40,169 nucleotides of DNA from an uncultured Candidatus Saccharibacteria bacterium (GTDB lineage: Bacteria; Patescibacteriota; Saccharimonadia; Saccharimonadales; Saccharimonadaceae), in the NCBI GenBank assembly GCA_937858705.1, contig CALLZM010000008.1:1-40169 (forward strand), given 5' to 3'. This document shows positions 21,303 to 36,438 of this stretch, piece by piece. The notes under the pieces are model-generated. The model made no database searches. It was not told the origin of the DNA and saw only the letters and a program-made list of their open reading frames with translations. Position 1 is the first letter of the stretch, and every line of letters begins with the position of its first letter. Both the position numbers and the translations under genes were made by a program.

Positions 21303-22835
21303 CTAGATAGTGTAAAGAGTCGAGCTTGACTGGGTAGACTGTGGAGTCACGCCATAGATATTTTGCATCACTTCTTCGATTTCTTTTTGCAAGTCTTTCA
21401 GAGAAGTAGCGTCTTTCGGTATTTCGACTGTTTGTGGCGCATTCAGTTCGAAATCTGCCGCAACCGTTACCTCAGATACAGCGGTCGGACTCGTGTCTAG
21501 ATTATCGCCCTTTGCGACCATCTCAACGCGTTTGAGCTGATGCGTGAGCGGTGTCACCCACATACGGATTGTCGTAGCAGGCTGGTCGCCATTAGCAGTA
21601 GTATCGTTCGTACTGCCATTTGAGGTATCGGTCGTACCCTGGCACTTTTTCAGTTCTTTCGCTAGTTTCGACTCTGAAACTTGCTTGCCAAACGCTTCGG
21701 CGTTCTTTTGAGTCGTATCACCCATATCGAGCTCAAAGCCAACTGCTCCCTTGTAGCCCTCTACCGTCACGCCTCGCTTGGCAATAAGAAATGGGTTGTC
21801 GCGATAGGCTTTTGTCACTTCGTCGCGCATCGCTGGGTCTTCGTTGAATTTTTTCATGGTATCGGTGAGGCACTTTTGCATAGTACCGATACTTTCTTCG
21901 GAATCCGACAGGTCGCTCGGGTCAATCTTAATCCATCGTGAATCAACTTTTTTGATGAAGGGGTCGAGTGCTTGAAGCATCTGTGTAGCCATCTGTTGAA
22001 TATACCCTTGATCCTGCGTTGTGCCCGTCTGAGCCATCATTTTCACAGCATCTTCAACAGCCTTTCTGATACCATCGGCCTTAACATATGCCACGCCATT
22101 GTCGGCCAAAACGGCATCCAGCTTAAGTGTAATAGGGTCGGAACCTTCGGCTTTGAAACTGAAATCTACCGTTGCTTTCGACGAGCCAGCCTTACCAGCA
22201 GAGACTGCGTTCATCGTTACCGTACCACCTTGGTATTTGATGGAGGCTTCCGTGTTGGTCGCAACCGTCTTGGCATTAAACACACTCATCACGCCATCGG
22301 TGATCATCTTTTCAGGATTTGACCACCAGAAGAAATAAAGTAGTGCCGCAGCAATAAGAACAACTGCGCCAATGATAATTCCTATGAATAGGCCTTTCTT
22401 CTTGTTTGCTATCGGCTTTTGACCGCCTGGCTGCGGGTCGGTAGTCGACTGAGGAGCAATGATTGGGGCAACTGGGGCTGCTGAGGTTGGTGTACTTGCT
22501 AGTTCGTCCTCCATGGATAGCGTAGAAGCTGCTACTTCTGGTGAGGCCGCTGGTTCATCCTCGATAATCACCGTTGGAGCTTCCAATGCCGACACAGGGG
22601 CTGGTTCGGTCTCTACCACCTCCGCTGGTGAAACCATCATTTCTTCGGTTTCTGGCGAAAATGATGCAACTTCTGGTACTATAGTGTCTTCTACGGCTAG
22701 TGTATTACTAGGTTCTACTGCTGGTTCTTGAAATGTCGTTGGCTGAACGGCCGAAACAGATTCTTCTACTGGTTGGTTTTGATCTACTGGCATTGGTGGT
22801 TGACTAGTGTCGGCCTGATTTTCTTCTGGATTCAT
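21303..22835 (-). CDS. Single-pass membrane protein with large outer domain, unknown function
   Basis: 510 residues. Residues 1-145 are acidic and rich in Pro, Glu, Val and Thr, probably disordered and cytoplasmic. One membrane segment follows (LFIGIIIGAVVLIAAALLYF, near 150-170), then a soluble domain of about 330 residues on the outside, with beta-rich stretches such as VTMNAVSAGKAGSSKATVDF and the pair FELNAPQTVEIPKDATSL. The outer part loosely recalls lipid-carrier folds (LppX/LolA style), only an impression. AAAGGGG lies before ATG 22835. No signal peptidase site; type II orientation. Confidence 0.75.
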   Translation of the reverse strand: MNPEENQADTSQPPMPVDQNQPVEESVSAVQPTTFQEPAVEPSNTLAVEDTIVPEVASFSPETEEMMVSPAEVVETEPAPVSALEAPTVIIEDEPAASPEVAASTLSMEDELASTPTSAAPVAPIIAPQSTTDPQPGGQKPIANKKKGLFIGIIIGAVVLIAAALLYFFWWSNPEKMITDGVMSVFNAKTVATNTEASIKYQGGTVTMNAVSAGKAGSSKATVDFSFKAEGSDPITLKLDAVLADNGVAYVKADGIRKAVEDAVKMMAQTGTTQDQGYIQQMATQMLQALDPFIKKVDSRWIKIDPSDLSDSEESIGTMQKCLTDTMKKFNEDPAMRDEVTKAYRDNPFLIAKRGVTVEGYKGAVGFELDMGDTTQKNAEAFGKQVSESKLAKELKKCQGTTDTSNGSTNDTTANGDQPATTIRMWVTPLTHQLKRVEMVAKGDNLDTSPTAVSEVTVAADFELNAPQTVEIPKDATSLKDLQKEIEEVMQNIYGVTPQSTQSSSTLYTI

Positions 22836-22894: not shown

Positions 22895-24181
22895 TCATTT
22901 CGCATCGCTAAAGCGTGAGAAAAGGTCATCTTTCATACGCATGTCCTCTGGCGACTGGCGAACCAACTGATGATCTTCAGACATATTGCATAGTATTTTC
23001 ACTGTTTCTTCTAAATGCGAGATGCGCGAGCCTTTCACAAGTATGATTGCTCCGTCTTCGGTGATGCTCCTCACAAATGCGCCCGCTTCTATAGCGTCGC
23101 GGCATACTTTTACCTGACATCCCCGTTGCTTCGCGACAGTTGCCAAATTGCCAGACGATTGCTCGCCAACTACAACAACCCATGCCAAAAAGTCGGGGTT
23201 GCACAAAGCGCCAATATGACCATGGTATTCCGCAGATCGTTCATGCAGATGATCCATATCGCCCAGTATGGCAATCCGTTGTGGTGCATCACTGAACGAA
23301 TAGAGTGTTTGCAACGCAGAGGCTGCATCTGCGGGCGATGAGCTTTTGGAATCGTCAAGAATAACTGTGCCTTGAATACCCCGCAAAGGATTCATGCGGC
23401 CGGGCATGGCCTGAACTTGCGGAATGGCAGTGGCTATTTCTTGCTCGGTCATACCTAACTGGCTCGCTACCGCGGTACTAGCAGCGAGCGCGCGAATACT
23501 GTGCTCGCCAACCAGCGCGGTCGTTGTTTCAATGGGCGCCTGCCATTCAGGTGCGCCAATTTGAATTTTCGTATCGAATGCCTGTTGGCTATCAGTCATC
23601 ACTACGCTATACTCAGCGATCACATCCGACCCATAGGTAGTAATATTCGGCGTAGTGATGAGTTCGGCAAATCTTCCTTCAACATCATCACGATTGATGA
23701 TAGCCAACCCCGCATGAGCTGTGATAGACATAATTTCTTGCGCCAGCGCATCAACCGAAGGAAATAGTTGTAAACGAACTGGTGAAATGGCGGTTATAAC
23801 AGTAATAGCTGGGTGGAGGTATTCGACATATTGCGCCACACTACCCTTGGCGTTCATAGGCAATTCCTGAACAATAACATCTACTACCGCTTCTTTTTTC
23901 ACTACTCTCCGAGCTGCCGATAGCGCTTTTAGCCCGGCGAATAGTCCCATTTTTTTCGGCATAGCAATACCCAAGATAGTAAATGGTATCGAAAATGGCG
24001 ATGGATCCACCTCATCATGCATTCGCACGCGATATTTCGTAGACAAAACAGTACCAATAGCTCGCTTCACACTCGCCTTGCCGACACTACCGACAACAAC
24101 AACGAGGCGAATATCTGGATGTTTGTCGAAATACTGCTTAACGAGTTTCTGCAATTTTTTGTGGAACATATTTTGTAGCAT
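22895..24181 (-). CDS. Divergent Mur ligase family protein (MurF-like)
   Basis: 428 residues. Layout of a Mur ligase: ATP-binding centre, then a C-terminal domain. The P-loop is VVVGSVGKASVKRAIG, where the usual GKTT/S reads GKAS. QELPMNAKGSVAQYVEYLHP marks the MurF-type central region, but the His expected in the following SHxxxF stretch reads PVRLQLF. LVGEHSIRALAASTAVASQL and ILDDSKSSSPADAASALQTL match MurF sequences around the substrate and ATP sites. It probably joins an amino acid or peptide to a nucleotide- or lipid-linked precursor; loss of standard residues makes activity uncertain. The -10 TATCAT lies 6 nt from the ATG. Confidence 0.78.
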   Translation of the reverse strand: MLQNMFHKKLQKLVKQYFDKHPDIRLVVVVGSVGKASVKRAIGTVLSTKYRVRMHDEVDPSPFSIPFTILGIAMPKKMGLFAGLKALSAARRVVKKEAVVDVIVQELPMNAKGSVAQYVEYLHPAITVITAISPVRLQLFPSVDALAQEIMSITAHAGLAIINRDDVEGRFAELITTPNITTYGSDVIAEYSVVMTDSQQAFDTKIQIGAPEWQAPIETTTALVGEHSIRALAASTAVASQLGMTEQEIATAIPQVQAMPGRMNPLRGIQGTVILDDSKSSSPADAASALQTLYSFSDAPQRIAILGDMDHLHERSAEYHGHIGALCNPDFLAWVVVVGEQSSGNLATVAKQRGCQVKVCRDAIEAGAFVRSITEDGAIILVKGSRISHLEETVKILCNMSEDHQLVRQSPEDMRMKDDLFSRFSDAK

Positions 24182-26565: not shown

Positions 26566-26698
26566 GGGCAACAACTAAATAATCAAAGCGCCTCGGCATG
26601 AGGAGCTTAACGCTTGAAAGGCGGTCATTTGGCTTACTTTCAATTGGTGCGTTAAGCTCTGATTGTTTAGTTGTTGCAGCCAGTGGCTGCCTTTTTTG
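26566..26698 (+). ncRNA. Structured leader or free RNA ending in a terminator, before the methyltransferase
   Basis: 18 continuous base pairs (one G-U) join 26568-26585 (GCAACAACTAAATAATCA) to 26660-26677. Stacked inside are 11 bp (GAGCTTAACGC 26603-26613 with GCGTTAAGCTC 26649-26659) and 7 bp (TTGAAAG 26614-26620 with CTTTCAA 26637-26643), with a 16-nt apical loop, a 5-nt bulge and a 17-nt side bulge that can make its own CCTC/GAGG hairpin. GCAGC-CAGTG-GCTGC and T6 (26692-26697) form an intrinsic terminator whose first two bases are shared with the closing stem. A further hairpin GTAGTT/AACTAC lies right before the methyltransferase ribosome site. Not a class I recognise. Confidence 0.75.
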
Positions 26699-26747
26699 TT
26701 GGTTGGTAGTTCCGCGGCTTTTAACTACAGGAGGGACGACCAGACCA

Positions 26748-27686
26748 ATGACCAGAAAACAAAAGTACACCGTGGTATCTCTATTCGCTGGAGCTGGCGG
26801 CATGGATATTGGCTTTGACCTTGAGGGCTTTAAGACAATATGGGCGAACGATTTTGACAAAGATGCTTGTGAAACGCACAAGGCGTGGTCGGGCGCAGAA
26901 GTGGTTTGTGGCTCTATCGAGAAAGTTGATTTAGACACACTACCAAAGGCTGACGTTGTGCTTGGTGGCTTTCCGTGTCAGGGCTTTAGCCTTGCGGGGC
27001 CACGTAAGGTTGATGACAAGCGCAACGTCCTATACCAGTACTTTGTAAAGGTCATTGAAAAAGTACAGCCTCGTGCTTTTGTCGCAGAGAATGTCAAGGG
27101 TATTCTCACGCTTGGCGGCGGCGAAATCATCAAAGTGATTATTCAAGAGTTTTCAGATAAGGGGTATAACGTACAGTTCAAGCTACTGAACGCAGCCGAC
27201 CATAACGTACCCGAAGATCGTTTTCGTGTCATTATGGTTGGTATCCGCAAAGATGTAAAAACGGATTTTTCATACCCAGAGCCAGCAAAAGAAAAAGTAA
27301 CGCTTAAACAGGCGCTTGGTCATTTTTCTGAACCAAAAGACGGCGAGGTATTAGAGGGCGGCTTTTCGCCACGCTTTATGAGCCGAAACAGAAAACGAGG
27401 TTGGGACGAACAGGCATTTACAGTCCCTGCTATGGCAAAGCAAGTAACACTCCACCCCTCATCTCCAGACATGGTAAAGCTCGATAAAGACCTGTGGCAG
27501 TTTGGTAAAGGCAAAACACGGCGATTATCGTGGCGAGAGGCTGCTGCCGTTCAGACTTTCCCCGAGGACATGCACTTTGCTGGTAATCTGGTGTCTATTT
27601 ATAAGCAGATTGGTAACGCTGTACCCGTTAATTTAGCACGAGCAGTGGCGAGTGAGCTGTATAAATCACTGGGGCGTGCGGAGTAA
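26748..27686 (+). CDS. DNA cytosine-5 methyltransferase, M.HaeIII-like (predicted GGCC)
   Basis: 312 residues. Motif I VSLFAGAGGMDIGFDLEGF binds SAM; motif IV GGFPCQGFSLAG holds the catalytic Cys; motif VI is FVAENVKGIL; motif VIII VPEDRFRVIMVGIRK; then FMSRNRKRGWDEQAFTVPAM and motif X YKQIGNAVPVNLA. The variable region, including FMSRNR and the Q-x-x-LHP block, matches M.HaeIII closely, so methylation of GGCC is likely. The start at 26748 follows AGGAGGG (12 nt spacing); the open frame further upstream covers the structured RNA and is not protein. The nuclease gene overlaps the stop (TAATG). GGCC sites are common in the window. Confidence 0.94.
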   Translation: MTRKQKYTVVSLFAGAGGMDIGFDLEGFKTIWANDFDKDACETHKAWSGAEVVCGSIEKVDLDTLPKADVVLGGFPCQGFSLAGPRKVDDKRNVLYQYFVKVIEKVQPRAFVAENVKGILTLGGGEIIKVIIQEFSDKGYNVQFKLLNAADHNVPEDRFRVIMVGIRKDVKTDFSYPEPAKEKVTLKQALGHFSEPKDGEVLEGGFSPRFMSRNRKRGWDEQAFTVPAMAKQVTLHPSSPDMVKLDKDLWQFGKGKTRRLSWREAAAVQTFPEDMHFAGNLVSIYKQIGNAVPVNLARAVASELYKSLGRAE

Positions 27687-28663
27687 TGACCACCGCAAGG
27701 CTTAACCAGACAATACAGGGCAAAGCCTATGAATATGCTTGCATGCAAGCCATCGCTGATAGCGTTGGACACGTTAGGCGTGTGCGCATAGTGCATAATT
27801 CAAGCCTAACAGTTGCGCAAAATGCGTGGGAGTTAATCGATGACACGCAGAAAACGAAAATGACAAAATCTGCACGAGCTGGCGTTGAAACCCTACTGCA
27901 ACTTGAGCCAAAGATTGTAGAAGACGGCAATGATGATTTAGAACTATCTCTACAGGCTGACAAGAAAGGTGTCGAAGGCGACGTTCGCGATGTTCTCATT
28001 ATTCGGCGGAGCATTGCATGGGAGATTGGTATTTCAGTAAAGCACAATCACTCTGCAGTTAAACACTCTCGGTTATCGCAAAGTATAGATTTTGGCAAAG
28101 AGTGGTTTGGCGTGCCAAGCTCACCTCATTATTTTGATGAGATATTGCCAGTGTTTACTCGGTTAAATAGGTTAAAATCAGCGGGGGTAAGATGGGGTGA
28201 TATAAGTGATAAGGCAACAGCCATATACGTACCGCTTCTTAACGCCTTCATGAACGAATTGAGGCGGCTTGATACCGAAAACCCAAACGTAGTACCTGCC
28301 CGACTGCTTGAGTATCTACTAGGACGCAAAGATTTTTACAAGATTATTTCAAATGATGCTGGCAAGTTCACAATGCTACAATGTTTTAATCTACACGGCA
28401 CCTTAAATACTGCTTCAAGTACTAGCCAGCCATCGCTAAAGGTACGCGGCGTAGATATGCCAAGCAAGATATACTTCCTTGACTTTAGGTCAATGCAGAG
28501 TGGCGAGCAGTCGCAAACAACAATTCAGCTTGTGATGGACGGCAACTGGGCGGTAAGTTTTAGAATACATAGTGCCAGCACGATGGTTGAACCAAGTCTA
28601 AAGTTTGATATTCAGCTTACGGGTGTGCCTAGTTCTATGTTTAGTAATAGCGTTAGTTGGTAG
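27686..28663 (+). CDS. HaeIII-family type II restriction endonuclease (predicted GGCC)
   Basis: 325 residues. Matches the HaeIII endonuclease family (PF09556) as I know it: QGKAYEYACMQAIADSV at the start, LEPKIVEDGNDDLELSLQAD, then GVEGDVRDVLIIRRSIAWEI and SVKHNHSAVKHSRLSQSIDF, where the acidic residues, Glu and Lys form the likely PD-(D/E)XK-type centre, and the ending FRIHSASTMVEPSLKFDIQL. The ATG shares its A with the methyltransferase stop, so the nuclease is made after the protective enzyme. Appears complete. A 14-bp inverted repeat follows the stop. Confidence 0.93.
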   Translation: MTTARLNQTIQGKAYEYACMQAIADSVGHVRRVRIVHNSSLTVAQNAWELIDDTQKTKMTKSARAGVETLLQLEPKIVEDGNDDLELSLQADKKGVEGDVRDVLIIRRSIAWEIGISVKHNHSAVKHSRLSQSIDFGKEWFGVPSSPHYFDEILPVFTRLNRLKSAGVRWGDISDKATAIYVPLLNAFMNELRRLDTENPNVVPARLLEYLLGRKDFYKIISNDAGKFTMLQCFNLHGTLNTASSTSQPSLKVRGVDMPSKIYFLDFRSMQSGEQSQTTIQLVMDGNWAVSFRIHSASTMVEPSLKFDIQLTGVPSSMFSNSVSW

Positions 28664-29127: not shown

Positions 29128-29282
29128 ATGCAGTATATACCAAAACTGGTACTAGAATGTACGATTACCGTAAAGGTACCTAAAAAGTATAGCGAATTCC
29201 GAGAAGTATTGCAAGTGGCTTTCTCTATTTTCCTCTGGCCACCTCGTGCTATACTAGTAAGTAATACATAAAGGAGGTGCGC

Positions 29283-30035
29283 ATGCTATTTTTTATCATA
29301 TTATCTATCATTGTCATTTTCATTCTATCGGGTATCAAGGTTATTAACCAATACCAGCGAGGTGTCGTTTTAACACTCGGGAAGTTCACTGGTGTTCGCG
29401 AGCCGGGTCTTCGAATTGTGGTGCCTATTTTTCAGCAACTCATTCGCGTTGATATTCGTTCTACTCCGATCGATGTGCCAAAACAAGAGATTATCACCAA
29501 AGACAATGTCACCGCTGGCGTTGACGCCATTGTTTATTTCCGAGTTATCGACTCACCAAAAGCCGTACTGGAGACAACAAACTATGTTTATGCAACCAGT
29601 CAATTCGCTCAGGCAGCCCTGCGCGATGTAACTGGCAATTTTGAGCTAGACGATTTGCTATCGAAACGAGAAGAGATCAGCCAGCAAATTAAAGAAATCG
29701 TCGACAAGCAGACCGACCAATGGGGTATCGATGTCGAGGCAGTAAAGATCCAAAATATTGAGCTGCCGAGTGATATGAAGCGCGCCATGGCCAAGCAAGC
29801 TGAAGCCGAACGAGAACGCCGTAGCAATATCATCAATGCCGAGGGCGAACGAGCCGCCGCAGAGACATTGGCCGAAGCCGCAAGAATCATCGCCAGCACG
29901 CCAGGAGCTATCAATCTCCGTACACTTAACACCGTCGAGCGCATCAGCACCGAACCAAGCCAGAAAACCACCATCCTCTTCCCTGTCGAACTGCTTGAAG
30001 CGGTCAAAACCATTGGCGACAATATGAAACGATAA
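29283..30035 (+). CDS. Slipin / stomatin-like SPFH membrane protein
   Basis: 250 residues. An N-terminal membrane hairpin or anchor (FFIILSIIVIFILSGIKV) is followed by the band 7/SPFH domain (VINQYQRGVVLTLGKFTGVR, PGLRIVVPIFQQLIRVDIR) and a C-terminal coiled-coil (AKQAEAERERRSNIINAEGE). Slipins form membrane microdomains and often pair with an NfeD protease partner, which is not seen here. The start is ATG 29283, five bases after AAGGAGG; a GTG at 29277 overlaps that site and is not used. Extended -10 TGC-TATACT at 29247-29255 leaves a 20-nt leader. Confidence 0.92.
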   Translation: MLFFIILSIIVIFILSGIKVINQYQRGVVLTLGKFTGVREPGLRIVVPIFQQLIRVDIRSTPIDVPKQEIITKDNVTAGVDAIVYFRVIDSPKAVLETTNYVYATSQFAQAALRDVTGNFELDDLLSKREEISQQIKEIVDKQTDQWGIDVEAVKIQNIELPSDMKRAMAKQAEAERERRSNIINAEGERAAAETLAEAARIIASTPGAINLRTLNTVERISTEPSQKTTILFPVELLEAVKTIGDNMKR

Positions 30036-30089: not shown

Positions 30090-31364
30090 ATGCTACATAA
30101 ACTTAGATTAAAAAGAAGCCTCTATTTGCTGGTTGCTAGGTATTTCAAGCTCTGGTCTTCGATTTCTCTCAATAGATGGAAACCGAAAATTATTGCCGTC
30201 ACTGGTTCGGTAGGAAAAACTACCATGCTGCATTTGCTGGAAATCCAGCTCGGTGACACGGCGCATTATTCGCACAATGCAAATAGTATGTACGGCATTG
30301 CTTTTGATATCGTTGGCCTCAGAGGCATCACAAATAGTAGATGGCGCTGGTTCTTGTTGCTCATAGCCGTACCATTTCGCTCGCTATGGTTTCGCCACAC
30401 CGAAGACTACTATGTCGTAGAAATAGATGGCGAACGGCCCAAGGAGGCCGAGATGATCGCTGGCTGGCTCAAGCCCGATGTTTGCCTTTGGATAAGCGTC
30501 GGCAATAGTCATGCTGTCTACTACGATAGCCTGGTCAGTAGCGGGCAATTTACTACCGTTGAAGAAGCTATTGCAAACGAATTTGCCAGCATTCCCAAAA
30601 ACACCAAAGATTTGGTAGTTATCGATGCCGAGAATCCTCTCATGAAGCAGTTTACAGGTGATATCGATACTAAAGTCGTTGCCGTATCTGGCCAGCCAGA
30701 TAGCTATACCGTACTCGCCGACCATACTGCTATCACTGTGGATGGACATTCGTTTCAATTCGCTTTTCCTACGCCAAAGAGTATAACGACTCAACTGAAT
30801 ATGTTGGTCGTGATCGCACGCTATTTAGAAATACCAATTACGACAGACTTATCGCAGTTTGTTATGCCACCAGGGAGAAGCAATTATTTTGAAGGTAAAA
30901 AAGGTATAAAAATTATCGATAGCACCTATAATGCCCATCTTTTGAGCATGCAATCGATTCTTGACATGTACAGCCAGATAGACGAACCTCATAAGTGGCT
31001 GGTCATTGGCGACATGATCGAACAGGGAAAAAGTGAAGCCAGCGAGCACCAAAAATTAGCGAACTTACTACAAACTATGGAAGTCGAAACGATTATACTC
31101 GTTGGCAAGCGAACGGCGAAATATGTCTTGCCTATCCTCGAAGAGTCATCGCTCACATCTACTATAAAATCTTTTACTACAACGCAAGACGCACTGGCAT
31201 ATATCGAAACCAATGGTACTGGCAGAGAAACAATCCTCTTAAAAGGCAGCCAATACCTCGAATGGATCGTTGAAAAACTACTCGCTCACCCCGCTGATAT
31301 ATCGCACCTTGCCAGACAAGAACCAGCAGCCAAAAAAAGACGGCTCGAGCGAGGTTTGTCATGA
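30090..31364 (+). CDS. Mur ligase family protein (MurF-like), first gene of envelope operon
   Basis: 424 residues. ATP-dependent amide ligase layout: P-loop IIAVTGSVGKTTMLHLLEIQ near residue 35, central YYVVEIDGERPKEAEMIAGW then WISVGNSHAVYYDS with the conserved His, and the MurF-type MPPGRSNYFEGKKGIKIIDS followed by TYNAHLLSM. The C-terminal domain (WLVIGDMIEQGKSEASEHQ, ILLKGSQYLEWIVEKLL) is complete. MurF adds the dipeptide to UDP-MurNAc-tripeptide; this protein may do that or a related addition, since a second, more diverged copy lies at 22895-24181. Overlaps the hydrolase gene by 4 nt (ATGA). Confidence 0.85.
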   Translation: MLHKLRLKRSLYLLVARYFKLWSSISLNRWKPKIIAVTGSVGKTTMLHLLEIQLGDTAHYSHNANSMYGIAFDIVGLRGITNSRWRWFLLLIAVPFRSLWFRHTEDYYVVEIDGERPKEAEMIAGWLKPDVCLWISVGNSHAVYYDSLVSSGQFTTVEEAIANEFASIPKNTKDLVVIDAENPLMKQFTGDIDTKVVAVSGQPDSYTVLADHTAITVDGHSFQFAFPTPKSITTQLNMLVVIARYLEIPITTDLSQFVMPPGRSNYFEGKKGIKIIDSTYNAHLLSMQSILDMYSQIDEPHKWLVIGDMIEQGKSEASEHQKLANLLQTMEVETIILVGKRTAKYVLPILEESSLTSTIKSFTTTQDALAYIETNGTGRETILLKGSQYLEWIVEKLLAHPADISHLARQEPAAKKRRLERGLS

Positions 31365-32050
31365 AATTATTTATTATACACGGCTGGGCTTACAGTATAG
31401 AACCCTGGCAAAATACTGTCGATAATCTTAGAGAACAAGGCGTAGAAGTAGTACAGCTAAAAGTACCTGGGCTCACAGAGCCGAGCAACGAAATATGGAC
31501 GGTCGAAAAATATGTCGCATGGCTGGGTGAACAGCTCGTGCACGAAGACCACCCTATCGTCCTAGGTCATTCAAATGGTGGCAGAATAGCAATGCATTTT
31601 GATGTCGAACACCCGGGTAAATTCAGGAAATTGATGTTGTTGAATAGTGCAGGCATAGAAATACGCTCCGAAAGGCTATCTGTGAAGCGACGCATCATCA
31701 GAATAGCTGCGAAATTATTGAAACCCCTCAAGCATATTCCTGGGCTAAAAAAACTCGTCTATCGCCTACTAGGGAGCGACTATGGCAATGCTCCGAAAAA
31801 CATGCAGGCAACTCTTGCACACATGCTCGCAAGCGACCGCTCGTTTGATGCCACCAAAGTAACCGCACCGACGAGCATACTATGGGGCGAAGCAGATACC
31901 ACTACACCACTTGCTATGGGCAAAAAACTCCACCAGCTTATCTCGCAGTCAACTCTCAAAACGATTCCCGACTGGCACCATGCACCGTATCGCACGCACC
32001 CCGAACAATTGGCAACAGAAATCCTGAAGATACTCGAGGACACAGCATGA
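31361..32050 (+). CDS. Alpha/beta hydrolase
   Basis: 229 residues. LFIIHGWAYSIEPWQ carries the oxyanion-hole HG, VLGHSNGGRIAMHF the nucleophile elbow (Ser), ILWGEADTTTP the acid Asp and DWHHAPYRTHPEQ the catalytic His. A short basic cap (KRRIIRIAAKLLKPLKHIPG) could touch the membrane. It lies between a MurF-like ligase and a PLP enzyme with ATGA overlaps on both sides, so it probably acts on an envelope precursor or a by-product such as an aminoacyl or ester adduct; the substrate is not known. Confidence 0.85.
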   Translation: MKLFIIHGWAYSIEPWQNTVDNLREQGVEVVQLKVPGLTEPSNEIWTVEKYVAWLGEQLVHEDHPIVLGHSNGGRIAMHFDVEHPGKFRKLMLLNSAGIEIRSERLSVKRRIIRIAAKLLKPLKHIPGLKKLVYRLLGSDYGNAPKNMQATLAHMLASDRSFDATKVTAPTSILWGEADTTTPLAMGKKLHQLISQSTLKTIPDWHHAPYRTHPEQLATEILKILEDTA

Positions 32051-33204
32051 TATTTCAATCACTTGGTTCGAACTATAGTTACCGATATGCCTGGCGACAT
32101 CTATTCGCGACTGGCTCAACTGATTCAAGCACAAAACTATCCACTCAGCTAGCCGCGGCGTACGGCGGCGAAGTTTTTTTATATGCCAGAGGCCGCCATG
32201 CACTCGCTGCTGCACTTGCAGCAACTGGTAGTACAGCGGTCGCGCTGAACGGCATTACCTGCTCGGTTGTTCCAGAAGCTGCGTTAGCTGCTGGCTCAAC
32301 ACTGCACTTCATCGACATCGATGAAAAAACCGGCAATATGTCCCTTCAAAAACTCGAGCACACGCTAAAAGACAATTCACACATCAAAGCCGTAGTAATA
32401 CAAAACACTTTTGGCAATATGATAGATATAGCAAAGGTTGAGCAACTTGCTAAAAAATATACTTTCTCCATCATCGAGGATCTCGCTCATTCCGTGGGGC
32501 AAACATATGCTGATGGCCGTCTGGCTGGCACGGTGGGCGATGCGGTCATGCTATCGTTCGGCCGTGATAAAATCATCGATGCCGTCAATGGCGGCGCTTT
32601 AGTCATTCGCAACTCCGCATTATCTAGCAATATAACTTCCCCGAAACTTTTACCGAGCCGCATGCAACAATTCCGTGATCGTATATACCCTCTTCTTACT
32701 TGCGTTATCCGCTCTACTTATGCAGTTGGCCTCGGGAAACTCATCCTCATGACAGCTCTCAAAACAAAGCTCATCCCTCGTTCGGCTGATGGCGGTATTC
32801 ACCCAGACGAGATTTTACCGCATTGGCAAGCAAAACTTATACATCAACAACTGGGAACACTCGCTGAAAACATGACTCACCGACAAGCCATCATGAGTAT
32901 ATACGCGGACATACTAGAATCCAAACTTATCAATTCAGAAGGTTCCATTCGAGGAGTGATTCTTGCAGAACAACGCGAAGAACTTCTAGCTTCACTTGCG
33001 AATAAGGGTTTTCAACTGCAAGATACTTGGTATGATACACCCATCGGACCTACCAGAAAATACCACCAATTTCACTATCCCGAAAAACAAAATTCTCATG
33101 CCGTCGCCTTCACTGATACTGTCATCAATCTGCCTACGCACATATATATATCAGACGGTGTCGCCAAACAAATAGCTCAACACATAAAGGAATTTTCATC
33201 ATGA
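32047..33204 (+). CDS. DegT/DnrJ/EryC1-type PLP-dependent enzyme
   Basis: 385 residues from ATG 32047; a longer open frame before it only overlaps the hydrolase. Fold type I PLP features: FLYARGRHALAAALAATGST, VALNGITCSVVPEAALAAG, VVIQNTFGNMIDIAKVE, IIEDLAHSVGQTY (Asp for the PLP ring) and LSFGRDKIIDAVNGGALVI with the Schiff-base Lys. This group makes amino sugars or similar amines by transamination. It might supply an amino compound used by the FemX-like enzymes that follow, but this is only suggested by the operon. Confidence 0.83.
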   Translation: MIFQSLGSNYSYRYAWRHLFATGSTDSSTKLSTQLAAAYGGEVFLYARGRHALAAALAATGSTAVALNGITCSVVPEAALAAGSTLHFIDIDEKTGNMSLQKLEHTLKDNSHIKAVVIQNTFGNMIDIAKVEQLAKKYTFSIIEDLAHSVGQTYADGRLAGTVGDAVMLSFGRDKIIDAVNGGALVIRNSALSSNITSPKLLPSRMQQFRDRIYPLLTCVIRSTYAVGLGKLILMTALKTKLIPRSADGGIHPDEILPHWQAKLIHQQLGTLAENMTHRQAIMSIYADILESKLINSEGSIRGVILAEQREELLASLANKGFQLQDTWYDTPIGPTRKYHQFHYPEKQNSHAVAFTDTVINLPTHIYISDGVAKQIAQHIKEFSS

Positions 33205-34214
33205 TCAAATTCGCACCCATAACTGATGCCGATGAGTGGAATAACCTCACAGAGAACCATCCGGAAGGAAATTTCTTGCAGTCATGGCAATGGGGAGAAG
33301 CCCATAGACTCACTGGACATGCAGTTGAGCGAATAGCGATACACCGAGATGGCCTGCCTGTTGGCTGCTTTCAGGCAATTGTTCGTGAGGCAAAACGAGG
33401 TCGATATATAGAAATTCCTGGCGGTCCGCTTGTCGACTGGTCGGATAACACTATCGTACAGTCAATGACCGATGAGATAAAAATGATCGCCAGGCGGCAG
33501 CGAGCAGTATTTGTTCGTATACGCCCGCAAACAGAAAAAGCACATGGTATAGTCGCAAACATGAAACAATTCAATTGGCGGCCAGCACCTATGCATCTTC
33601 ACGCCGAGCATACTTCAATCGTTGACCTCACCATAGATCCCGACACGCTTCTAAAAAATATGCGTCAACAAACTCGCTATGAAGTTCGGCGAGTGGTCAA
33701 GCGAGGTATTCACATCGAATGGTCCTCTTCGCTAGCGGCTGTGCGGGAATTTCACAAGCTACAGACCAATACTGCCACCAGGCAGCACTTCATTCCATCG
33801 AGCCTCACATTTCTCGAGGCCTGCCAGCAAGTGTTTGGCGACTCACTTCGAGTGTATTATGCAAAAAAAGACGATCAATTGCTGAATATGAGTATCGCGA
33901 TTTTTTATGGCAATGAAGCCGATTATTTCGAAGCTGCATCGACCTTGACTGCTCGCAAGGAACCTGGTGCATATGGAATTATCTGGCGCATCATTGAAGA
34001 CGCACAAGCACTTGGCCTGACGCGACTAAACCTTTGGGGCATCGCAAGCTCTGACAGCCCGAGCCACCGCTATGCTGGCGTAACCACCTTCAAGAAAGGG
34101 TTTGGCGGTACTACCATGCACTATCTTCCAGCGCACGACCTAATCATCAACCCACTCACCTATCCGCTCAACTGGACTGTCGAGACAATTCGTCGTAAAA
34201 GGAGAAAACTATGA
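33201..34214 (+). CDS. FemX/FemAB-type peptidyltransferase, first copy
   Basis: 337 residues, two GNAT-like halves as in FemAB/MurM enzymes, which move amino acids from aminoacyl-tRNA onto peptidoglycan stem peptides. Markers: NFLQSWQWGEAHRLTGHAVE at the start, IPGGPLVDW, VFVRIRPQTE, MRQQTRYEVRRVVKRGIHIE (basic), ALGLTRLNLWGIASSDSPSH then YAGVTTFKKGFGG. Its ATG overlaps the PLP gene stop and its stop overlaps the second copy. Pairs of Fem enzymes often add successive residues of an interpeptide bridge. Confidence 0.9.
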   Translation: MIKFAPITDADEWNNLTENHPEGNFLQSWQWGEAHRLTGHAVERIAIHRDGLPVGCFQAIVREAKRGRYIEIPGGPLVDWSDNTIVQSMTDEIKMIARRQRAVFVRIRPQTEKAHGIVANMKQFNWRPAPMHLHAEHTSIVDLTIDPDTLLKNMRQQTRYEVRRVVKRGIHIEWSSSLAAVREFHKLQTNTATRQHFIPSSLTFLEACQQVFGDSLRVYYAKKDDQLLNMSIAIFYGNEADYFEAASTLTARKEPGAYGIIWRIIEDAQALGLTRLNLWGIASSDSPSHRYAGVTTFKKGFGGTTMHYLPAHDLIINPLTYPLNWTVETIRRKRRKL

Positions 34215-35230
34215 TTCACATAAAAACTATCGAAGACGCTACCGTCTGGGACACATTCGTTACCGCACACCCAGAAGCTAACTTTTTGCAGTCATGGCAA
34301 TGGGGCGAATTTCAGCTCTCACGAAATCGTACAGTAGTCCGTAGAGGAGTATTCGACGACGAAACGCTCATCGGTGTCTACACTGGGCATATTGAAAAAG
34401 CCAAACGAGGACACCATATGCAAATAGCTGGTGGGCCAATTATCGACTGGAAGAATCAATCAGCCGTCCAAGCATTGTTCACCGACATCAGACAACAAGC
34501 CAAAAAGCTACAGTGCGTCTATGTGCGAATTCGTCCACAAAAAGAAGAGTCTACGGAATTCCTCAGTGAGCTAAAAGCTCTTGGGCTACAACCAGCACCA
34601 ATATACCTTAGCGTTGAGCTCGCAGGCATTCTTGACCTTCGCCTCAGCGAGGAAGATATACTAAAAGGCATGCGCCAGCGACTACGACGAGCGCTTCGAA
34701 AAGCCGAAAAAAATGCTATTTCTATCGAAACAACGACCGATCCTGCGGCTATCGACGAATTTTACAATATTCAATTGCAAACAGCTGGTCGACAGCAATT
34801 CGTTGCCTTCTCAAAAGAGTTTTTACAAAAACAATTCGCCGCATTCGCAAAGACCGGAAATGCTGTACTCTACACCGCTCGACATGAAGGCGAAGTTCTC
34901 GCACAAAACTTTATGATTTTTTATGGCAATGAAGCATCGTATCACTATGGCGTCAGCACCGAGCTCGGCACAAAACTATCTGGTGCGCCTCTGCTTCACA
35001 TGCAGGCCATGCGTGACGCAAGAGAACGAGGTATAAAACGCTACAATTTCTGGGGTATCGTGAATGAGCAAGACACAAAACATCGTTTTTATGGTGTCAG
35101 TGTTTTCAAGCGAGGTTTTGGCGTACAAGAGCTGCAATACACCAAGGCGCACGACATGGTTATCCGGCCGCTTCCATATATCGTTTCGTTTGTTGTCGAT
35201 TCGATCCGCCGCCTAAAACGCCGTGTCTAG
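34211..35230 (+). CDS. FemX/FemAB-type peptidyltransferase, second copy
   Basis: 339 residues, same order of motifs as the gene before it: NFLQSWQWGEFQLSRNRTVV, IAGGPIIDW, VYVRIRPQKE, MRQRLRRALRKAEKNAISIE, KRYNFWGIVNEQDTKHRFYG then VSVFKRGFGV. The two are tandem duplicates that have diverged, although short DNA tracts remain identical. The basic RLRRALRKAEKN stretch could contact tRNA. Last gene of the operon; rarA follows from its own promoter. Confidence 0.9.
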   Translation: MIHIKTIEDATVWDTFVTAHPEANFLQSWQWGEFQLSRNRTVVRRGVFDDETLIGVYTGHIEKAKRGHHMQIAGGPIIDWKNQSAVQALFTDIRQQAKKLQCVYVRIRPQKEESTEFLSELKALGLQPAPIYLSVELAGILDLRLSEEDILKGMRQRLRRALRKAEKNAISIETTTDPAAIDEFYNIQLQTAGRQQFVAFSKEFLQKQFAAFAKTGNAVLYTARHEGEVLAQNFMIFYGNEASYHYGVSTELGTKLSGAPLLHMQAMRDARERGIKRYNFWGIVNEQDTKHRFYGVSVFKRGFGVQELQYTKAHDMVIRPLPYIVSFVVDSIRRLKRRV

Positions 35231-35252: not shown

Positions 35253-35258
35253 TACAAT
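35253..35258 (+). promoter_or_regulatory. Extended -10 promoter of rarA, leaderless spacing
   Basis: TGA TACAAT (35250-35258); ATG 35266 follows after 7 nt. An earlier in-frame ATG at 35257 lies inside the -10 box and cannot be the start of this transcript. Confidence 0.6.
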
Positions 35259-35265
35259 GGGTACA

Positions 35266-36438
35266 ATGGAAAGAACGCCATTGGCCGAAAAAATGCGCCC
35301 CCAAACACTCGATGAAGTGATCGGGCAAACCCACCTTTTGGGTGATGCTGAAATTCTACGCAGCATCGTTTCCAATAAGCAACCTGTTAGCCTCGTTTTA
35401 TGGGGCCCTCCTGGTACAGGTAAAACTACTCTGGCGCGTATTATTGCAAAAGAAGTTGAAGCAGAATTTATAGAATTATCGGCTGTCACCAGTGGCAAAA
35501 AAGATGTCGAAAAAGTCATCGAACATGCCCGGCAGAACTGGAATTTACAACTCCGCACTATCCTCTTTGTCGACGAAATCCATCGCTTCAATAAAGCACA
35601 GCAAGACGCATTTTTGCCGCATGTTGAGTCGGGGCTCATCACACTGATTGGCGCAACAACGGAAAATCCAAGTTTCGAAGTCATCACGCCGCTCCTTAGT
35701 CGAACGCGAGTGCTCGTGTTACAACCGCTTGCCAAAGATGAAATCTTGAAGATTCTTAAACGAGCTCTGAAGCTACTCAAACAGGCGAAGAATGTCACAC
35801 CAAAAGCGCTCGATTATCTGGCCGAGCTTTCTGGCGGCGACGCGCGCGTGGCACTTGGCAACCTCGAACTGGCACTGAGTTTTCACGAAAAAGTCACGCC
35901 AGATATCGTCAAAGCCGCAGCTCAGAAAAAAGTACCTGGCTACGACAAAAAAGGTGATATGCATTACGATGTTATTTCGGCGTTCATCAAAAGCATGCGC
36001 GGTTCGGATGTGACGGCGGCACTGTATTATCTTAGCCGGATGATTGACGCTGGCGAAGACCCAAAGTTTATCGCTCGGAGGATGGTGATATTTGCCTCCG
36101 AAGATATTGGGCTGGCTGGTAATGGCGCCCTGGCGTTAGCAGTTGCAACATTTCAAGCAGTCGAACGAGTCGGTATGCCCGAAAGCAATTACATTCTCTA
36201 CCACTGTGCCACAGCACTGGCAAAAAGTGAAAAATCTCGCGAAATTACCGATCTCATGAACGAAGCAAAGTCACTCGCCAAACAATTCCCCGATTCACCC
36301 GTTCCGCTCCATATCCGCAACGCTCCAACAAAGCTCATGAAGGACCTTGGCTATAGCAAAGGTTACAAGTGGCAGGCCGACTTCAAGCACACAAAAGGGT
36401 TTTTGCCCGATGAAATCACGCGAAACAACAATACATAA
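35266..36438 (+). CDS. rarA: Replication-associated recombination protein A (AAA+ ATPase)
   Basis: 390 residues from ATG 35266 (MERTPLAEKMRPQTLDEVIG). RarA/MgsA works at stalled replication forks with SSB. Walker A LWGPPGTGKTTLARI, Walker B ILFVDEIHRFNKAQQD, sensor 1 IGATTENPSFEV, arginine finger LLSRTRVLVL, then the RarA tetramerisation domain (ISAFIKSMRGSDVTAALYYL, RMVIFASEDIGLAG). Complete. It ends 9 nt from the stop of the convergent trehalase gene, with no terminator visible between. Confidence 0.96.
   Translation: MERTPLAEKMRPQTLDEVIGQTHLLGDAEILRSIVSNKQPVSLVLWGPPGTGKTTLARIIAKEVEAEFIELSAVTSGKKDVEKVIEHARQNWNLQLRTILFVDEIHRFNKAQQDAFLPHVESGLITLIGATTENPSFEVITPLLSRTRVLVLQPLAKDEILKILKRALKLLKQAKNVTPKALDYLAELSGGDARVALGNLELALSFHEKVTPDIVKAAAQKKVPGYDKKGDMHYDVISAFIKSMRGSDVTAALYYLSRMIDAGEDPKFIARRMVIFASEDIGLAGNGALALAVATFQAVERVGMPESNYILYHCATALAKSEKSREITDLMNEAKSLAKQFPDSPVPLHIRNAPTKLMKDLGYSKGYKWQADFKHTKGFLPDEITRNNNT

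Follow-up and report, generated by a model that had tools for sequence, protein, structure and literature searches.

What does a five-gene operon that combines a Mur ligase, an alpha/beta hydrolase, a DegT-type pyridoxal phosphate (PLP) enzyme and two FemX-type transferases contribute to a Saccharibacterium with a genome of 0.91 Mb? The operon lies at 30090-35230 of a stretch of 40,169 nt (the window; contig CALLZM010000008.1, positions 1 to 40,169 of the forward strand), and its genes, in order MurFL, hydrolase, DegT, FemX1 and FemX2, are here also called the cassette. A sequence-only reading had proposed that they form a path which makes an amino compound, ligates it and attaches it to peptidoglycan stems. 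Based on comparisons across Saccharibacterial sequences, we suggest that the operon is a cell-wall precursor module standing in for the MurF/Ddl step, and we assign this reading a probability of about 0.52. Such a replacement was absent from the earlier bridge idea and appears to be a stronger signal than a bridge.

Co-occurrence of the cassette and Ddl

Evidence for this reading comes from the near mutual exclusion of the cassette and Ddl. Genomes, loci, genera and families are labelled G, L, g and f, respectively; Ddl was called from PF07478 at E<=1e-12 and, in the class set of 392 genomes, MurFL was called from a profile match at E<=1e-40. Within the family of the window genome, Ddl was found in 0/20 cassette genomes versus 71/101 others, and five of the cassette genomes gave weak ATP-grasp matches only (E 4e-7 or worse). 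Across the class set, 138 genomes have MurFL, 207 have Ddl, 3 have both and 50 have neither, so that Ddl is present in 3/138 MurFL genomes versus 204/254 MurFL-free genomes. Genus g2 contributes 103 of the 138 MurFL genomes, and with g2 excluded the figures are 1/35 versus 204/254.

The alternation is also seen inside single genera. Genus g12 includes 20 MurFL genomes without Ddl as well as three genomes (G068, G108 and G322) with Ddl and without MurFL, and in g16 MurFL occurs in G015 versus Ddl without MurFL in G071, G109, G304, G315 and G366. As G015 is a single contig with 99 % completeness, and completeness is given as 100 % for G001 and G011, the absence of Ddl is not an assembly effect.

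Decay of the ordinary MurF

A MurF-type ligase is carried by nearly all Saccharibacterial genomes searched, and its usual place is beside leuS. In the window, this leuS-locus MurF has GKA for GKT and DDSKSSSP for DDTYNSSP, and its EH is lost. An alignment of seven cassette rows from the family and 11 non-cassette rows, scored by eye, separates the two groups: the motif DD[ST]YN[SA]SP and an N-rich motif (loop) are each kept in 0/7 cassette rows, the EH histidine in 1/7 and GKT in 4/7, versus 11/11 non-cassette rows for all four features. In 12 further cassette genomes (g2, g10, g12), the leuS-locus MurF was not found by a query with MurFL or with MurF470, a MurF of 470 aa carrying a membrane domain at its N terminus; G019 is incomplete. 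Since the leuS-locus MurF is broken or not found in the family cassette genomes, the task of the last Mur ligase probably falls to MurFL in these genomes, and the leuS-locus MurF is its probable displaced counterpart.

A related arrangement is found in the distant families f22, f10, f6, f35 and f29, where a form with one FemX (MurFL-hydrolase-DegT-FemX) adjoins leuS or stands one gene away from it, leuS being called there by similarity to the window copy and the G096 copy. This is the usual place of MurF, and the arrangement thus counts for the replacement.

Two further proteins were noted around these ligases. Between the degraded MurF and leuS in the window, a 510-aa open reading frame (ORF; 21303-22835, minus strand) matched nothing in Pfam or NCBIfam under the thresholds applied. 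In g12, a Mur-ligase-like protein of 318-325 aa stands near the cassette (L130:10570-11526, L264:12306-13262 and L265:1666-2643); in L130 and L264 its neighbour is a ParA-like gene, and in L130 it has lost the P-loop (pseudo-Mur ligase). The 318-aa form beside ParA was considered as a remnant of the leuS-locus MurF and rejected, since a similar copy occurs in g12 genomes in which the leuS-locus MurF is intact.

Hydrolase-MurF-Ddl module beside RarA and Band 7

In the window genome (G000) and in G057, the cassette is placed between genes for a Band 7 protein and RarA. At four other loci (L144, L146, L150 and L151), RarA and Band 7 are instead found together with a hydrolase, MurF470 and a 390-aa Ddl. 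Part of this module, RarA-hydrolase-MurF470, is present at L145, and the hydrolase-MurF470 pair stands away from RarA and Band 7 at L147 and L149. Residues S71, D179 and H207 are invariant in the hydrolases, both cassette-borne and MurF470-linked. A hydrolase and a MurF are thus common to both modules, and the Ddl of one corresponds to the DegT-FemX of the other. Of MurF470, G294 retains the membrane domain alone, encoded as a 140-aa gene adjoining MurFL (L258:9698-10120). This domain was also matched by a short frame at G060:C1:51396-51737, in a genome without Ddl or a close MurFL match.

Conservation of the gene set

That the five genes form a unit, as expected from the window alone, was confirmed in relatives: the set is conserved in 20 of the 121 genomes of the family and in distant families, and the gene order is the same in 19 relatives. 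The full MurFL-hydrolase-DegT-FemX1-FemX2 form accounts for 17 of the 20 family cassettes, including three split across two contigs (G045, G032 and G092) and one, in G019, whose contig ends before MurFL and in which MurFL was not found; the other three (G011, G094 and G119) are without DegT. The sequence-only reading had also placed DegT in the same pathway rather than in an unrelated one, and this held: in the family set, matches to the window DegT at E < 1e-20 are confined to cassette genomes, with weaker, ordinary DegT matches elsewhere, and in G338 (f25) MurFL and the hydrolase are accompanied by a single reading frame encoding DegT and then FemX. In G319, of the same family, the interval from hydrolase to FemX yielded no DegT.

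MurE is the immediate upstream neighbour of MurFL in G055 and in G032 (the latter judged by position and sequence), and in G085 another gene stands between them; the MurE model TIGR01085 was above its cut-off for L122, L125 and L143. Taken together, the conserved unit, the tie of DegT to cassettes, the DegT-FemX fusion and the upstream MurE make a role in the envelope or the stem peptide likely. To this extent the proposed path to peptidoglycan stems stands, with a bridge as only one option for its product.

Of the best 80 loci from named genomes, the ten nearest in MurFL carried Candidatus Saccharibacteria titles and were 45-54 % identical, and beyond these ten the identity of MurFL was <=29 % in the best segment. 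FemX2 is a paralogue of FemX1, and in a tree the FemX1 copies form one group and the FemX2 copies another, with a long-branched copy from G319 falling with FemX2; the grouping fits one duplication in the family of the window genome. Two observations on Fem genes are added here. In DegT-less g12 cassettes, a TMEM43-like gene (PF07787) is found between FemX1 and FemX2 (L130:7976-8848 and L264:9718-10575). The window genome also carries a second Fem pair on C6 (L143:7063-12452), comprising FemX, an arginine-deiminase-like (DDAH) gene, MurE on the opposite strand, a TsaD-like gene and FemX.

Operon layout

Four ATGA overlaps join the five ORFs, all frames of which are open, and the coupling described from the window sequence alone was borne out at all four junctions (Table 1). 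By mechanical gene calls, the window has 28 pairs of adjacent genes on one strand, and the four ATGA-type junctions among them are all inside the cassette, which exceeds a chance pattern. For DegT, the mechanical ORF list starts at 31882, and the in-frame ATG at 32047 was preferred because it fits the homologues. A hand count in 19 relatives, with start codons chosen by script, gave four-base overlaps at 29/71 cassette junctions and overlapping or abutting genes at 55/71; an exclusive use of ATGA is exact for the window genome only, and tight coupling is general. Upstream of the Band 7 gene, the window also encodes a HaeIII-like restriction-modification pair (26598-28663, plus strand), in which a C5 cytosine methylase (PF00145) and a HaeIII-type restriction endonuclease (PF09556) overlap by one base.

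Table 1. Genes of the operon, its flanks and the leuS-locus MurF in the window.
Feature	Length (aa)	Position	Strand	Remarks
leuS-locus MurF, motif-degraded, outside the operon		22895..24181	-	One gene from leuS
Band 7/SPFH gene, flanking the cassette		29277..30035	+	
MurFL, MurF-like Mur ligase without N-terminal substrate domain	424	30090..31364	+	Pfam Mur_ligase_M and Mur_ligase_C above cut-off
Alpha/beta hydrolase	229	31361..32050	+	Abhydrolase_1 above Pfam cut-off; ATGA overlap with MurFL
DegT-type PLP enzyme	385	32047..33204	+	DegT_DnrJ_EryC1; ATGA overlap with hydrolase
FemX1	337	33201..34214	+	FemAB 136 bits; ATGA overlap with DegT
FemX2	339	34211..35230	+	FemAB 131 bits; ATGA overlap with FemX1
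RarA-type AAA ATPase gene, flanking the cassette		35257..36438	+	

Predicted proteins

The best NCBIfam match of MurFL is murF TIGR01143 at 130 bits, below the cut-off of 288.6, which is reached by no gene in any of 48 genomes. Its P-loop (G42-K43-T44-T45, invariant in 19 orthologues) starts at residue 39 after one helix, and the N-terminal substrate-binding domain is missing, as it is from the general Saccharibacterial MurF. The AlphaFold2 (AF2) model of MurFL has a mean predicted local distance difference test score (pLDDT) of 90.6, and among solved structures (VIA) it matched Thermotoga maritima MurF (3zl8) first, with Z 30.8 and a root-mean-square deviation (rmsd) of 2.7 over 341 aligned residues, followed by Acinetobacter baumannii MurF and, lower, by MurC, cyanophycin synthetase and MurT; the fold and the C-terminal domain are MurF-like. 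A carbamylated lysine and other invariant residues are expected in Mur ligases. In the sequence alignment, inspected by eye, MurFL has a residue other than Lys at the position of this lysine, as do most of the Saccharibacterial MurFs aligned, so that its absence does not single out MurFL and was rejected as a sign of a dead enzyme. A membrane helix at residues 84-100 was likewise rejected, the segment being hydrophobic in the window genome and less so in distant orthologues.

DegT matches PF01041 with 102.7 bits against a cut-off of 19.8, and K175 (the PLP lysine), D145 and H148 are invariant in 16 orthologues and also in distant families. Its AF2 model (pLDDT 90.6) is closest to nucleotide-sugar aminotransferases (Foldseek, VIA), which are tied at Z about 35 and rmsd 2.5-2.9, with AHBA synthase and cyclitol enzymes slightly below and ranks within Z 1 taken as tied; sequence matches to nucleotide-sugar aminotransferases end near residue 200. 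The subgroup comparison proposed earlier for DegT therefore gave sugar aminotransferases as the best fit, and it does not decide between a sugar and an amino-acid role because nearly all solved members of the family are sugar or cyclitol enzymes.

Both FemX1 and FemX2 are above the cut-off of PF02388. The closest solved relative of FemX1 is the Staphylococcus aureus lipid II:glycine glycyltransferase (6snr), which is also the best profile match of FemX2 (E 1.4e-27). Similarity to 6snr and 1ne9 suggests for both enzymes an aminoacyl-tRNA donor and lipid II or a UDP-MurNAc-peptide as acceptor.

Proposed pathway and alternative explanations

In our best reading, MurFL would be the MurF of the cassette lineages and DegT-FemX would take the place of Ddl. 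As the working last Mur ligase, MurFL would extend the MurE tripeptide with an amine-bearing group not made by Ddl, DegT would supply or install the amine, and FemX would add one amino acid from aminoacyl-tRNA, or two where a family has both FemX1 and FemX2, onto either the amine-bearing group added by MurFL or the residue 3 side chain. The hydrolase may be a companion of MurF-type ligases. We infer the chemistry of the MurFL addition and of the DegT amination from the sequences. A bolder version of this replacement, which we regard as unlikely, is that DegT and FemX are a PLP- and tRNA-dependent substitute for the D-Ala-D-Ala ligase: DegT would make the amine, FemX would couple this amine to an amino acid carried by tRNA and MurFL would add the product to the MurE tripeptide, giving a stem peptide end or bridge made wholly without Ddl.

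Several observations weigh against the replacement. Three MurFL genomes also give weak Ddl matches (G294, G381 and G415; E 1e-13 to 1e-17), and the p values of Fisher's test for MurFL versus Ddl (6e-58, or 5e-20 without the g2 MurFL genomes) both ignore relatedness. Loss of Ddl does not need the unit, as 50 of the 254 MurFL-free genomes are also without Ddl; in these, another source of the stem end must exist, perhaps import. DegT, missing from three family cassettes, cannot be essential everywhere, and outside the family G133 has a less damaged leuS-locus MurF (GKT and DDSYNSSP) beside MurFL. The motifs SxxK, SxN and KTGT are kept in 8/8 penicillin-binding proteins (PBPs) from three cassette genomes, and an S11 DD-carboxypeptidase occurs in 7/28 cassette genomes, so that D-Ala-D-Ala-like ends may still exist; with intact PBPs and possible import of D-Ala-D-Ala, an ordinary stem is possible.

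These points lead to an explanation that we consider possible though doubtful, in which MurFL is an ordinary MurF that uses host-derived D-Ala-D-Ala or a similar dipeptide, and Ddl was lost once it had become dispensable. FemX1 and FemX2 would then form a usual cross-bridge at residue 3, with envelope tailoring by DegT and the hydrolase. The MurF-like fold and C-terminal domain of MurFL, the lipid II transferase as closest FemX relative, the intact PBPs, the S11 carboxypeptidases and the Ddl-free genomes without MurFL all agree with it, as does the alanine racemase C-terminal domain, found in only 4/48 genomes, from which it follows that most must import D-Ala or a D-Ala-containing compound whatever their Ddl state. 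Wall genes did not otherwise separate the groups: PBP transpeptidase domains are kept in all 48 genomes checked, so that PBP loss in cassette genomes was rejected, the S11 carboxypeptidase is uninformative (7/28 cassette versus 4/28 other genomes), and the racemase shows no useful difference. What import leaves unexplained is the close tracking of Ddl loss with the unit (3/138), the decay of the ordinary MurF where MurFL is present, and a DegT that travels with FemX and is fused to it. The same decay and the exclusion of Ddl point to the stem peptide rather than to a non-peptidoglycan surface polymer or glycolipid, for which DegT would make an amino sugar, FemX-type enzymes would aminoacylate it and MurFL and the hydrolase would finish it, the Ddl link coming from shared ancestry or host dependence. 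Although nucleotide-sugar aminotransferases are the nearest fold matches of the DegT model and FemAB-like proteins also occur in polysaccharide clusters (a weak match to TIGR03019), none of the cassette genes at the loci read was recognised as a sugar dehydratase, dehydrogenase or glycosyltransferase, and MurE neighbours MurFL in G055 and G032; we consider such a polymer improbable.

Relation to known systems

The cassette resembles the MurF and Ddl pair in that MurFL has the middle and C-terminal domains of MurF, has MurFs as its top structural matches and occupies the place of MurF or MurF-Ddl in relatives; it differs in the missing N-terminal substrate domain, in a genome without Ddl and in its partners, the hydrolase, DegT and FemX. 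With FemX/FemA/FemB and MurM/MurN it shares tandem FemAB-family transferases, the best match being S. aureus FemX, but to our knowledge neither a Mur ligase nor a DegT enzyme or hydrolase belongs to these cross-bridge sets, and they show no exclusion of Ddl. MurT, like MurFL, lacks the Mur N-terminal domain and is among the fold matches of MurFL (Z 23); however, MurT chains match below MurF and no GatD-type amidotransferase (the glutaminase partner) is found among the cassette genes, and MurFL was therefore rejected as the MurT of a MurT/GatD pair. A changed terminal dipeptide step is also the feature of the Van systems (VanH-VanA-VanX), which use a Ddl-fold ligase, whereas such a ligase is almost always missing from cassette genomes. 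The cassette DegT shares family, fold and PLP lysine with the nucleotide-sugar aminotransferases (DegT/DnrJ/EryC1/StrS), yet it tracks MurFL and FemX and not sugar genes. PMC8651080 suggests that the stem ends of candidate-phyla bacteria may be D-Ala-D-Lac or D-Ala-D-Ser. No description of the unit or of its Ddl link was found in the open-licence literature searched, including passages of PMC4814524, PMC8651080 and PMC10768705, which is no proof of novelty.

Significance

If the replacement is true, Ddl and MurF would have been swapped for a DegT-Fem-Mur unit, and the step would be shown to be replaceable. The D-Ala-D-Ala stem end is among the most conserved features of the bacterial wall and is the target of glycopeptides and D-cycloserine. 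The replacement would predict the glycopeptide and D-cycloserine behaviour of these parasitic bacteria, and it poses a clear biochemical question, open to tests on purified enzymes and on the muropeptides of a relative in co-culture. Our analysis suggests that a group of tiny parasitic bacteria has an unusual way of building the end of the cell-wall peptide, which is a classic antibiotic target.

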